40,565 bases of DNA, from positions 1-40,565 of the forward strand of contig NSLH01000024.1 in the NCBI GenBank assembly GCA_002763895.1, given 5' to 3'. Shown in pieces: positions 1 through 3,375 of this stretch. How positions within the stretch are numbered: the first letter of the stretch is position 1; each line of letters starts with the position of its first letter. A program made the position numbers and the translations under genes. The notes under the pieces are model-generated. The model was given only the letters and a program-made list of their open reading frames with translations. It searched no databases and was not told the DNA's origin. This DNA comes from [Chlorobium] sp. 445. Its GTDB lineage: Bacteria; Bacteroidota; Chlorobiia; Chlorobiales; Thermochlorobacteraceae.

Positions 1-230
1 TCGGTGTAAGACCCGTGCAAGACAAACAGCGGTGGATTATTTGGGTTGCCGAACGTTTCTAAATGCACTGCGCGCGTCTTTCCTGCCACCGTGATGGAAA
101 TCTGAGGTAATTGCCGGTCCTGGTCAGCAGTAGGGGGCACAAGCGCACCTTGTTCGTCAATTTCGCGGCAGGAATACAGTAGCAGCGACCAAAGCCAGAT
201 ATACCACTTTGGCCATTTTGAGATGTTCAT
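1..230 (-). CDS. Lipoprotein alpha/beta hydrolase, N-terminal part only
   Basis: The gene runs off the window start, so only its first 76 residues are visible. Residues 10-20 are hydrophobic and end in LLYSC, a lipobox with Cys21 as the lipidation site, so export and outer- or inner-membrane anchoring is likely. Residues 67-75 read PLFVLHGSY; a hydrophobic strand followed by HG is the usual oxyanion-loop start of alpha/beta hydrolases. The nucleophile and catalytic His lie outside the window, so substrate cannot be named. The ATG start is supported by GGAG about six bases upstream. It follows the membrane-protein gene on the same strand by 58 bases and may share its TetR-controlled promoter. 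Confidence 0.6.
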   Translation of the reverse strand, partial: MNISKWPKWYIWLWSLLLYSCREIDEQGALVPPTADQDRQLPQISITVAGKTRAVHLETFGNPNNPPLFVLHGSYT

Positions 231-288: not shown

Positions 289-678
289 TCAGGATTTTCC
301 AAGCAGTGCGATGCAGAGCATCAAGAGACTGATTATTCCCATCGATGCGAAAAAAGTGTTGCGATGCCCTTCAGTGTCGCTGCAAGTCTGCCATGCACGA
401 TAACTCTGCGCAAGTGTTATCGCAAGCGCTGCAACACCTAGATGCATCCACGAGGCGAGTCCAAGTTCAACGCCTTGCGAAAAGAAGCACACCAAATACA
501 CAGTTCCTGAAAGACCTTGCAGAAGTAACACCCACCCAAACATAGACAAAAGCCAATGTGCAAATCGTGTGTAAGTCGACTTTCCTATCCACGCAATAGC
601 AAATTTGAGCGAAACTGTAATTCCTAAAAGAAGCGTCAAACTGCCCAGCAAGCCATGTATGAGCCGCGCGTCGTTCAT
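289..678 (-). CDS. Hypothetical four-helix membrane protein
   Basis: I do not recognise this 129-residue protein. It has four hydrophobic stretches, roughly residues 8-30, 41-65, 75-92 and 108-127, with a short charged stretch between the third and fourth (around residues 93-106), so it is an integral inner-membrane protein. Basic and aromatic residues flank the helices, but no catalytic motif or metal-binding pattern is visible. It lies directly downstream of a tetR-type gene on the same strand, and two matching inverted repeats precede it, so it is probably the regulator's main target. A small efflux or stress-membrane role would fit that context but is only inference. The Shine-Dalgarno sequence is weak. 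Confidence 0.6.
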   Translation of the reverse strand: MNDARLIHGLLGSLTLLLGITVSLKFAIAWIGKSTYTRFAHWLLSMFGWVLLLQGLSGTVYLVCFFSQGVELGLASWMHLGVAALAITLAQSYRAWQTCSDTEGHRNTFFASMGIISLLMLCIALLGKS

Positions 679-695
679 TTTAATTTCACTTTTTT

Positions 696-753
696 AGAGA
701 ACAGCGTTCGCTATAAATATACGAACAAAAAAGAGAACAGTGTTCTCTTTTTT
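696..753 (-). promoter_or_regulatory. Promoter flanked by two TetR-type operators; one also a possible terminator
   Basis: Two related inverted repeats are visible: AGAGAAC-agc-GTTCGCT at 696-712 and AGAGAAC-agt-GTTCTCT at 732-748. Their centres are 36 bp apart. Between them, read on the minus strand at 714-721, is TATATTTA, one base from the TAnnTTTG minus-7 element seen elsewhere in the window. The second repeat extends to two perfect 12-base arms (727-738 and 742-753) ending in six T on the minus strand, so it could also terminate the tetR transcript. I infer that the TetR protein encoded upstream binds both sites and represses the downstream membrane-protein gene. Confidence 0.6.
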
Positions 754-761
754 AGAAAAAA

Positions 762-1388
762 TTATTGTCTCAGTCCACTCAGCAAATTGTTGAAGGAGTA
801 AAAGTAAAATGTGGAAAATTCGTCGTTATTCTGTGGGGCAAGGCCCGTTAGGCGCAAAGCAACCGCACCGTGTGCATGTGTCCAAATTGTGTAGGCAATC
901 CCGGTTGCATTTCCCGGCTTGAACAGCCCTGCATCCAGACATATTTGCACCACATTTTCCAAAATTTGAAATGTCGTACGTGAGTGTGCGCGCACACTCT
1001 CAGGTATTGTTGAACTCTGGAAATACTGATGTGGATTGAGAAAAATCACTTCGTAATACTTAGGCTGCTCTATTGCAAAGGAAAGATATTCAGAGATGGT
1101 GCGATGCAGTTTTGCCTCAGGTGTGGGTTCTGTTAGCGCACGCTGCAAATACGATGTAAACACACTGTAGCCTTCCGTAATGATTGCCCAAACCAGTGCA
1201 TCTTTGTTCTCATAATGCTTGTAGAGCGACGAGGGCACTACCCCTAACTTGCGTGCAATGCGCCGCATTGATAGCGATTCAATTCCTTCTTTCAGATAGA
1301 GCTCGAGACTGACTTTCAAAATGCGCTCGCGTGGGGCAAGCGGTGTGCGAGAGTGCCGTTTCTTTTGCTTTGGCTGCGAGACTTTCAT
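762..1388 (-). CDS. TetR-family transcriptional repressor
   Basis: This 208-residue protein has the length and layout of a TetR repressor. A basic N-terminus (residues 1-20) precedes a helix-turn-helix at about 39-59 with the family pattern RRIARKLGV followed by SLYKHYENKDAL. The C-terminal half is helical and contains Trp169, His173 and Gly174 in a WTHAHGAVAL context, which resembles the WHG-type ligand-binding domain. It should be a cytoplasmic dimer released from DNA by an unknown small molecule. Its likely operators are the two inverted repeats just downstream (696-748), so it appears to control the next gene rather than its own start. No matching repeat is visible upstream of its own ATG. 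Confidence 0.85.
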   Translation of the reverse strand: MKVSQPKQKKRHSRTPLAPRERILKVSLELYLKEGIESLSMRRIARKLGVVPSSLYKHYENKDALVWAIITEGYSVFTSYLQRALTEPTPEAKLHRTISEYLSFAIEQPKYYEVIFLNPHQYFQSSTIPESVRAHSRTTFQILENVVQICLDAGLFKPGNATGIAYTIWTHAHGAVALRLTGLAPQNNDEFSTFYFYSFNNLLSGLRQ

Positions 1389-1485: not shown

Positions 1486-2016
1486 TCAGATTTGTTCGCC
1501 ACGGTTGTAGCGCTCACCTTGCGCTTTGTTTGGGGCTCTTTTGTCAAATTCAGGCAAAGGAATGCTACCCGGCACGCCAATGAGCGGAAAATCTTTACGC
1601 AGCGGATAGTATTCAAAATCTTCGGGCATATACATGCGTCGCAAGTCAGGATGCCCTTCAAAGCGAACACCGTACATGTCGTAAGTTTCGCGCTCATGCC
1701 AATTTGCGCCGCGCCAAACACTGGTAACGCTGGGCACAACAGGATTATCTTCTTCGACGCGCACCTTCAAGCGAATGCGCCAATGCTTGTCGAGATTGGT
1801 AAGGTTGTAAATCACTTCGAAGCGTTCTTCTTCGGTGAATCGGTCGGCACCGCAAATCTCTACGCAGTAGTTAAAGCCATGATCGTCTTTGAGCGTGCGG
1901 CAGATTTCGACAATCGACTTTGTTTCAACCAGCAGTGTGGTTTCACCTCTGAACTCTGTAACTTCTTTAATCGCCCCGTTAAATTTGGCTTGCAGGGCTT
2001 GGACAATCTCTTTCAT
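1486..2016 (-). CDS. nuoC: NADH-quinone oxidoreductase subunit C
   Basis: NuoC is part of the peripheral arm of respiratory complex I, close to the N2 cluster and the quinone site. The 176-residue protein contains the family signature around residues 108-145: ERETYDMYGV, then GHPDLRRMYMPEDF and PLRKDFPL. Length is normal for a stand-alone NuoC, so it is not fused to NuoD. It lies downstream of nuoA and nuoB on the same strand. The expected nuoD does not follow; about 100 bases after the stop codon the tetR gene begins. The ribosome-binding site is weak. Other membrane subunits of the complex must be encoded elsewhere. Confidence 0.95.
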   Translation of the reverse strand: MKEIVQALQAKFNGAIKEVTEFRGETTLLVETKSIVEICRTLKDDHGFNYCVEICGADRFTEEERFEVIYNLTNLDKHWRIRLKVRVEEDNPVVPSVTSVWRGANWHERETYDMYGVRFEGHPDLRRMYMPEDFEYYPLRKDFPLIGVPGSIPLPEFDKRAPNKAQGERYNRGEQI

Positions 2017-2044
2017 ACTGGTTGCTTTTTAGTTCGTTTTCGCA

Positions 2045-2239
2045 CTATGGTTTTTGGGCAATCATTACCATCTCATCACCAATCCTGAGCCACTCAGATA
2101 GCTTAATGACTGCGCTGTGAGCATTTGCTATCACTGCCGTCTTGAACTTGCCACCCTTAGTAATCGCATTAAAGGCGCGCTGCGCATCAGCATTTGTGTA
2201 AGTGGGCTGTGCAGTTCGCCTCTTGAAACCATGATGCAG
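2045..2239 (-). CDS. Small unexplained reading frame between nuoB and nuoC
   Basis: The 224-base gap between nuoB and nuoC holds a 64-codon open frame on the coding strand. It reads as natural protein, with segments such as NADAQRAFNAIT and KLSEWLRIGDEMVMIAQKP. It lacks an ATG, GTG or TTG; CTG at 2239 is the only near-start, directly after the nuoB stop. The end of the frame (hydrophobic strand, LRIGDEMVMI) vaguely recalls AbrB/SpoVT swapped-hairpin proteins, but this is weak. It could be a small gene with an indel near its start, a gene remnant, or chance. I see no ribosome-binding site. Confidence 0.25.
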   Translation of the reverse strand: MHHGFKRRTAQPTYTNADAQRAFNAITKGGKFKTAVIANAHSAVIKLSEWLRIGDEMVMIAQKP

Positions 2240-2240
2240 A

Positions 2241-2798
2241 TTATTTCTGCAAGGTAAGTTGGTTTTGTTCTGCTTCAGTTAGCCGCTCAAGTTTAGCTAA
2301 TCCTTCTTCCGAGAGCAAGGCATCGCGGAAAGAATGACGCTGGTGCTTGATTTTCTCTTGAATATCCATTAAAGCGTGCAGCACTGCGTCTGGTCGGGGC
2401 GGACAGCCGGGCACATAGACATCGACGGGAATAAATTGATCGACACCTTGTACCACAGGATAGGAGCGAAACATGCCACCTGATGAACTGCATGCGCCCA
2501 TTGCAATGCACCACTTGGGTTCAGGCATCTGGTCCCAGATTTTTTTGACCACATGTGCCATCTTATAGGTAACTGTGCCAGCGACAATCATTAGATCGCT
2601 TTGACGTGGCGACATACGAAAGACCTCTGAGCCGAAACGTGCGACATCATACTTTGGTCCTGCCATCGCCATCATTTCAATTGCGCAGCATGAAAGCCCC
2701 ATTGGCATGGGCCAAAGCGCATTGGAGCGTGCCCAGTTGGTAATTGCATCCATCGTGGTCGTCAAAAAACCATCGCCGAAAGGATTGTTTTGCGTCAT
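2241..2798 (-). CDS. nuoB: NADH-quinone oxidoreductase subunit B
   Basis: NuoB carries the terminal iron-sulfur cluster N2 that passes electrons to quinone in complex I. The 185-residue protein has the four cluster ligands in the expected pattern: the tandem Cys37-Cys38 (SCCAIEMM), Cys103 in [10 protein letters not shown] and Cys132 in VPGCPPRPD. The ATG at 2798 is preferred over an in-frame TTG nine bases upstream, because [11 protein letters not shown] matches typical NuoB starts. It lies between nuoA and nuoC, on the same strand, which is the usual complex I order. The gap before nuoC is unusually long and holds a small open frame. Confidence 0.97.
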
Positions 2799-2861
2799 AC
2801 TTCTCAAGATTTAGTTTATAGAGACTCGCTCTTTGAAAACGCTAAGGCGAAATTAGCCGTT

Positions 2862-3218
2862 TTAATCCCACTCGAGTGCGCCCTTTTTCACAATGTAGAG
2901 ATAGCCTGCCAGCAGCAGCAGTGCAAAGGTCAGCATCGGAATAAACCCAGCGAGTCCAAGCTCACGAAAACTTGTCGCCCAAGGATACATAAAGACAACC
3001 TCTATATCAAAGACAATAAAGAGCATGGCGACAAGGTAATACTTGATGGAAATGCGTTGCTTACCTGTGCCCACAGGTTCCATGCCTGATTCATAGGTTG
3101 TGAGTTTTTGTGCGGTTTTACGTTTAGGTCCAATAGCGATGCCTAGTGCCGAGAGTGCAATGCCTGCAGTTACCGCAAGGCTAATCATCGCAAAAATCGG
3201 TAGGTAGGCTTCAATCAT
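2862..3218 (-). CDS. nuoA: NADH-quinone oxidoreductase subunit A
   Basis: NuoA is a small membrane subunit of complex I at the junction with the peripheral arm. The 118-residue protein has three membrane helices, about residues 5-30, 61-82 and 90-110, and the conserved loop with YESGMEPVG at about 43-51. The acidic FDIEVVF segment in the second helix (about 73-79) is characteristic. The frame is open further upstream, but the ATG at 3218 gives the standard MIEAYLPIF start. It is the first gene of nuoABC, and a well-formed promoter lies upstream at about 3245-3276, divergent from thrA. Confidence 0.96.
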   Translation of the reverse strand: MIEAYLPIFAMISLAVTAGIALSALGIAIGPKRKTAQKLTTYESGMEPVGTGKQRISIKYYLVAMLFIVFDIEVVFMYPWATSFRELGLAGFIPMLTFALLLLAGYLYIVKKGALEWD

Positions 3219-3244
3219 ACTGTGCTTCTTTTTGATGTGAGATG

Positions 3245-3276
3245 TAAAGATACAGCACTGTATGCGCTCTCTCAAA
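3245..3276 (-). promoter_or_regulatory. nuoA promoter with dyad
   Basis: On the minus strand, TTTG (3273-3276) is followed after 20 bases by TATCTTTA (3245-3252). This is the Bacteroidetes-type minus-33/minus-7 arrangement with one mismatch in the last base. A 12-base dyad, TACAG-CA-CTGTA, occupies 3251-3262 between the two elements and overlaps the minus-7, a good position for a regulator to block RNA polymerase. The promoter fit is seen directly; regulator binding is inference. Confidence 0.55.
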
Positions 3277-3333
3277 TCTCCAGTGCTGCCGAGCATGTTG
3301 TCAAAGTTGCTGCATGGCTTGCGGTTCTTTTCG

Positions 3334-3341
3334 TATCTTTG
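3334..3341 (+). promoter_or_regulatory. thrA promoter minus-7 element
   Basis: TATCTTTG matches TAnnTTTG exactly and is followed by GCC. It ends 34 bases before the thrA ATG, the same distance as for rpmH and the short-chain dehydrogenase. No TTG sits at the usual 19-21 base spacing upstream; the nearest is 24 bases away. I see no obvious leader peptide rich in Thr or Ile codons, so threonine attenuation of the enteric type is not apparent. Confidence 0.55.
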
Positions 3342-3375
3342 CCGCTTCATTTATTTTGTCAGCTCAAAAATCGCT

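Follow-up and report, generated by a model that had tools for sequence, protein, structure and literature searches.

The DNA analyzed here (the window; 40,565 nucleotides) corresponds to contig C24 in a draft genome of 2.8 Mb. On its minus strand, homologs of nuoA, nuoB and nuoC, the last assigned by Pfam and the other two by reading, are followed by a tetR gene, an 83-bp gap, a gene for a membrane protein and a gene for a lipoprotein. The tetR gene (positions 762–1388, minus strand) encodes a TetR-family regulator of 208 amino acids that combines the N-terminal helix-turn-helix domain TetR_N (PF00440, 43.2 bits against a Pfam gathering cut-off of 24) with TetR_C_33, a C-terminal domain that binds ligands in a known class of TetR proteins (PF13305, 49.8 bits against a cut-off of 26.8). 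The membrane protein gene (289–678, minus strand), the presumed target of regulation, encodes 129 amino acids that form four helices in an AlphaFold2 model. The lipoprotein gene (3–230, minus strand), which is perhaps the second gene of an operon, is truncated by the contig end, and the part at hand encodes the start of a lipoprotein resembling an alpha/beta hydrolase. The homologs of nuoA, nuoB and nuoC (1486–3350) close a gene run; the gene after nuoC differs among the relatives examined, with nuoD located directly behind it in genome G005 and close behind in G004.

Two palindromes of 17 bp each, neither assigned to a strand, lie in the 83-bp gap. O1 (AGAGAACAGTGTTCTCT, 732–748) is perfect and lies between the tetR stop codon and the likely promoter, and O2 (AGAGAACAGCGTTCGCT, 696–712) contains one mismatch and lies over the expected transcription start; read on the minus strand, they are AGAGAACACTGTTCTCT and AGCGAACGCTGTTCTCT, respectively. 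Their centers, at 740 and 704, are separated by 36 bp. The coordinates, sequences and center spacing of both repeats given in the initial annotation proved correct when re-read from the sequence, and the upstream repeat is indeed part of a long inverted repeat (727–753, minus strand), with arms of 13 nt rather than the 12 originally reported. Among 20,000 dinucleotide shuffles of the intergenic sequence, none contained a pair of palindromic 17-mers alike in at least 15 of the 17 positions; the pair is not a chance occurrence.

Between the two sites, within TTCGTATATTT, we found a putative −10/−7 box, TATATTT (715–721, minus strand), that is kept in the related genome discussed below. On the minus strand, the box reads TATATTTA (721–714) and, save for the last base, fits TAnnTTTG, a promoter consensus from Bacteroides (PMC7366714). 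Upstream of genes, TATATT is over-represented in the sense orientation in both genomes (29 vs 13 in one, 20 vs 11 in the other), and the sense bias of TAnnTTTG in the same two genomes is slight (54 vs 46 and 32 vs 26). Given the origin of the consensus, the earlier description of this element as a near-consensus minus-7 is no more than plausible for this lineage; the promoter as such we infer, because no −33/−35 partner element was found at the usual spacing from the box.

The initial annotation had suggested checking whether the repeats are conserved in related genomes that carry this gene pair, and both are kept in the only other such genome found, that of Ca. Thermochlorobacteriaceae bacterium GBChlB (G003; contig JPGV01000015.1), so that the comparison involves one additional genome. 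The gene pair is absent from two congeners (G001 and G002), and a search of other collections for TetR orthologs with more than 50% identity yielded only that of GBChlB. The GBChlB proteins are 65–66% (TetR, depending on the comparison) and 53% (membrane protein) identical to those of the window, and their genes flank an 88-bp gap that holds AGGGAACAGTGTTCTCT, the conserved counterpart of O1 (L030:6415–6431), and a perfect copy of AGAGAACAGTGTTCTCT in the place of O2 (L030:6381–6397), 34 bp apart, with TTCGTATATTT between them. The shuffle test on this intergenic sequence likewise gave 0 of 20,000. A third GBChlB site (L030:5683), with 2 mismatches and inside the next gene, was left out of the count. 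In the window, the cassette lies behind nuoC, whereas in GBChlB nuoC is on contig C6 and tetR on contig C15; the cassette thus occupies a different chromosomal position in GBChlB, and the tandem order, the gap and the sites have therefore been kept while the surroundings changed. The perfect palindrome is O1 in the window and O2 in GBChlB, and in each genome the partner site is mismatched. The substitutions in the partner, that is, O2 in the window and O1 in GBChlB, break a stem yet spare a half-site, a pattern that fits protein-binding DNA better than an RNA structure.

This comparison also bears on the earlier proposal that O1 serves both as an operator and as an intrinsic terminator of tetR, stopping read-through and binding the repressor. 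O1, measured from its 13-nt arm, lies 8 nt past the stop codon of tetR; this location is compatible with such a role, as is the hairpin of O1, which is U-rich on the 3′ side and folds at −12.5 kcal/mol (z = −3.8). However, the stem contains few G-C pairs and incorporates the U run, so that O1 lacks the G-C-rich stem, followed by a U tract and conserved among relatives, that characterizes an intrinsic terminator, and it was not among the terminators called by the scan. Moreover, the O1 hairpin of GBChlB is mismatched and weak (−5.1 kcal/mol), and the strong hairpin in that genome is that of O2 (−11.7 kcal/mol), inside the leader of the next gene. We therefore find no support for the dual role as a general feature and consider it unlikely, although the extended repeat may form a weak tetR terminator in the window alone.

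The window TetR belongs to a group defined by the combination of PF00440 and PF13305, which allowed a comparison with 63 distant homolog loci from the phylum with their flanks (23–31% protein identity). A site was defined as a AACNNNGTT core in which 5 or more of 8 positions pair, located from −60 to +20 relative to the tetR start. By this criterion, a palindrome is present just upstream of tetR in 54 of the 63 homologs, whereas four equally long control windows gave 0, 1, 0 and 0 of 63. This operator most often takes the form AGTTAACACTGTTAACC, some 20 bp ahead of the start codon; like forms are shared by loci L126–L188 (for example, about 21 bp before tetR in L138), and many of these precede fatty-acid degradation genes, namely those for acyl-CoA dehydrogenase, acyl-CoA ligase or hydroxyacyl-CoA dehydrogenase. 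Both O1 and O2 carry the group core AACASTGTT, O2 with one base off. The outer bases differ, with TTAAC..GTTAA in the group and GAGAAC..GTTCTC (GAG..CTC) in the window, which accordingly departs from the group pattern; the operator ahead of the regulator's own gene, a trait of the group, is missing in the window, where the sites sit behind tetR.

In the tree, two large groups stand next to a single long branch that comprises the TetR proteins of the window and GBChlB, and because of this long branch the exact place of these two proteins is unsure. In the larger group, the seven neighbor genes scanned were three acyl-CoA dehydrogenases, three AMP-binding ligases and one 3-hydroxyacyl-CoA dehydrogenase; such genes are absent next to the window tetR, the neighbors of which are nuoC and the membrane protein gene. 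In the other group, which includes paralogs in GBChlB, G004 and G005, related sites occur ahead of tetR, after its stop codon or in both places. At one distant locus (L128, reverse strand), the like palindromes ATTAAACAATGTTTAAT and AATAAACATTGTTTTTA lie 18 bp apart, at 27 and 45 bp past the stop codon of tetR, between the tetR homolog and a short-chain dehydrogenase-like gene. The layout had been called uncommon, which is only partly borne out: a site just behind tetR recurs among group members, one of which has two, and a pair that brackets a conserved box at 34–36 bp turned up only at the two orthologous loci.

Because O1 and O2 share their core with the operators of this TetR group, they are predicted to be operators of the adjacent TetR, and judging from the sequence comparisons they almost certainly are. 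Taken as a whole, the observations are best explained by two predicted TetR operators placed around the promoter that likely drives the membrane protein gene, a reading to which we assign a probability of roughly 0.87; the proposal of this arrangement in the initial annotation is thus supported by both the GBChlB locus and the operators of distant group members. Under this model, TetR dimers would bind O1 and O2 on either side of the promoter. If TATATTT is the −10/−7 box, the −35 region would fall under O1, and the start together with the initial transcribed bases under O2, such that both the binding and the escape of the polymerase would be blocked until a small molecule frees the repressor. 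The distance from O2 to the box is 2 bp in both genomes, whereas that from O1 to the box is 10 bp in the window and 8 bp in GBChlB; because only the former is fixed, independent binding of the two dimers is more probable than the formation of a single rigid complex. A rigid cooperative pair or a loop was rejected, given that the center spacing, 36 vs 34 bp or 3.4 vs 3.2 helical turns, is not conserved.

A different regulator of the same genome could, in principle, bind the palindromes, considering that their outer bases depart from the usual operator of the group and that binding by the adjacent TetR is a prediction. However, in GBChlB the sites have remained next to this tetR at another chromosomal location, and their core is the operator core of this very TetR group, which makes such a regulator highly improbable. 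Least probable of all is that the palindromes are RNA hairpins, namely, a terminator and a leader attenuator, rather than operators: the perfect stems (O1 in the window and O2 in GBChlB) do fold far better than shuffles, but in either genome the other copy combines a disrupted stem with an intact half-site, and the core recurs before tetR in the great majority of the distant homologs.

Returning to the operator model, no operator was found upstream of tetR, where the best match has 5 mismatches in 14 positions, and for this reason tetR is unlikely to be autoregulated via this motif and would be made at a steady level. Further matches to the motif across the genome are no more common than those to a reversed control pattern and nearly all lie inside genes; a wider regulon was rejected on these grounds, and the scarcity of matches beyond the control indicates a local regulator. 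Because many relatives, which share about a quarter of their residues with the window TetR, precede fatty-acid degradation genes, an acyl-CoA-like inducer can be offered as a reasonable, if weak, guess by analogy.

The initial annotation left both putative target genes unassigned. The membrane protein is now assignable to a small family of four-helix proteins, whose members (L107–L118, together with window positions 289–678) lack a Pfam model, are scattered over the phylum and occur in unrelated gene contexts. No significant match to this protein was found in Pfam, NCBIfam or PDB; there was no sequence match to a solved structure, and the best fold match (E = 0.29) pointed only to generic four-helix bundles. 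The AlphaFold2 model consists of four helices with a mean pLDDT of 93, and alignment with 13 remote homologs identified invariant H8, Q54, G58 and H79. A b-type haem is suggested by the two invariant histidines, of which one lies in helix 1 and the other in helix 3; similar proteins of Bacteroidota are annotated 'cytochrome B'. In G006, the remote homolog (L031:4198–5318) adjoins a 4Fe-4S NapH/CcoG-like membrane protein, and there is no TetR gene next door. The hydrolase is not conserved as a partner, and its gene breaks off at the contig end: it has no Pfam match and no homolog among 20 relatives, and in GBChlB the next gene encodes a different membrane protein, so that a conserved hydrolase target was rejected. 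One could imagine an acyl-CoA- or lipid-sensing TetR lineage that lost autoregulation, acquired two operators behind its own gene with changed outer bases and came to control a possibly haem-binding membrane protein, with the three-part cassette moving as a unit; we regard this scenario as speculative and rather doubtful.

In all likelihood, the layout in this relative of green sulfur bacteria from hot springs is a real but ordinary switch for the neighboring membrane protein gene. Several operators per TetR-controlled promoter region are already well known (PMC3511530, PMC4424350), and the novelty is limited to a new regulator/target pair and the operator core of a widespread TetR group. An unstudied TetR of hot-spring relatives of Chlorobiales gains a testable operator, and the four-helix membrane family without a Pfam model gains a likely regulator. 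The more useful result is the operator core AACASTGTT, typically AGTTAACACTGTTAACC, shared across the phylum by a large group of PF13305 TetR proteins, many of them encoded beside fatty-acid degradation genes; a limited literature search found no description of such an operator for this group.

Among the known systems, that of Tn10, in which a dimeric TetR-fold repressor acts on two palindromic operators, tetO1 and tetO2 (PMC3511530), resembles the window in having both palindromes within one short intergenic region. In Tn10, however, tetR diverges from its target and repression acts on both promoters, whereas the tandem genes of the window have sites around the downstream promoter only. MbdR of Azoarcus, also a TetR-family repressor, has several palindromic operators over −10/−35 and start sites (PMC4424350) and differs from the window TetR in its operator, ATACN10GTAT, its known ligand and its control of several promoters. 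The site of the TetR-type FadR of Thermus thermophilus, TTRNACYNRGTNYAA (PMC5597230), has the same AC-N3-GT core spacing. The TetR group of the phylum that is located beside fatty-acid genes has in common with the window both Pfam domains and the core AACASTGTT; these FadR-like relatives usually possess one operator before tetR, in contrast to the two sites behind tetR, next to a membrane protein gene, in the window.
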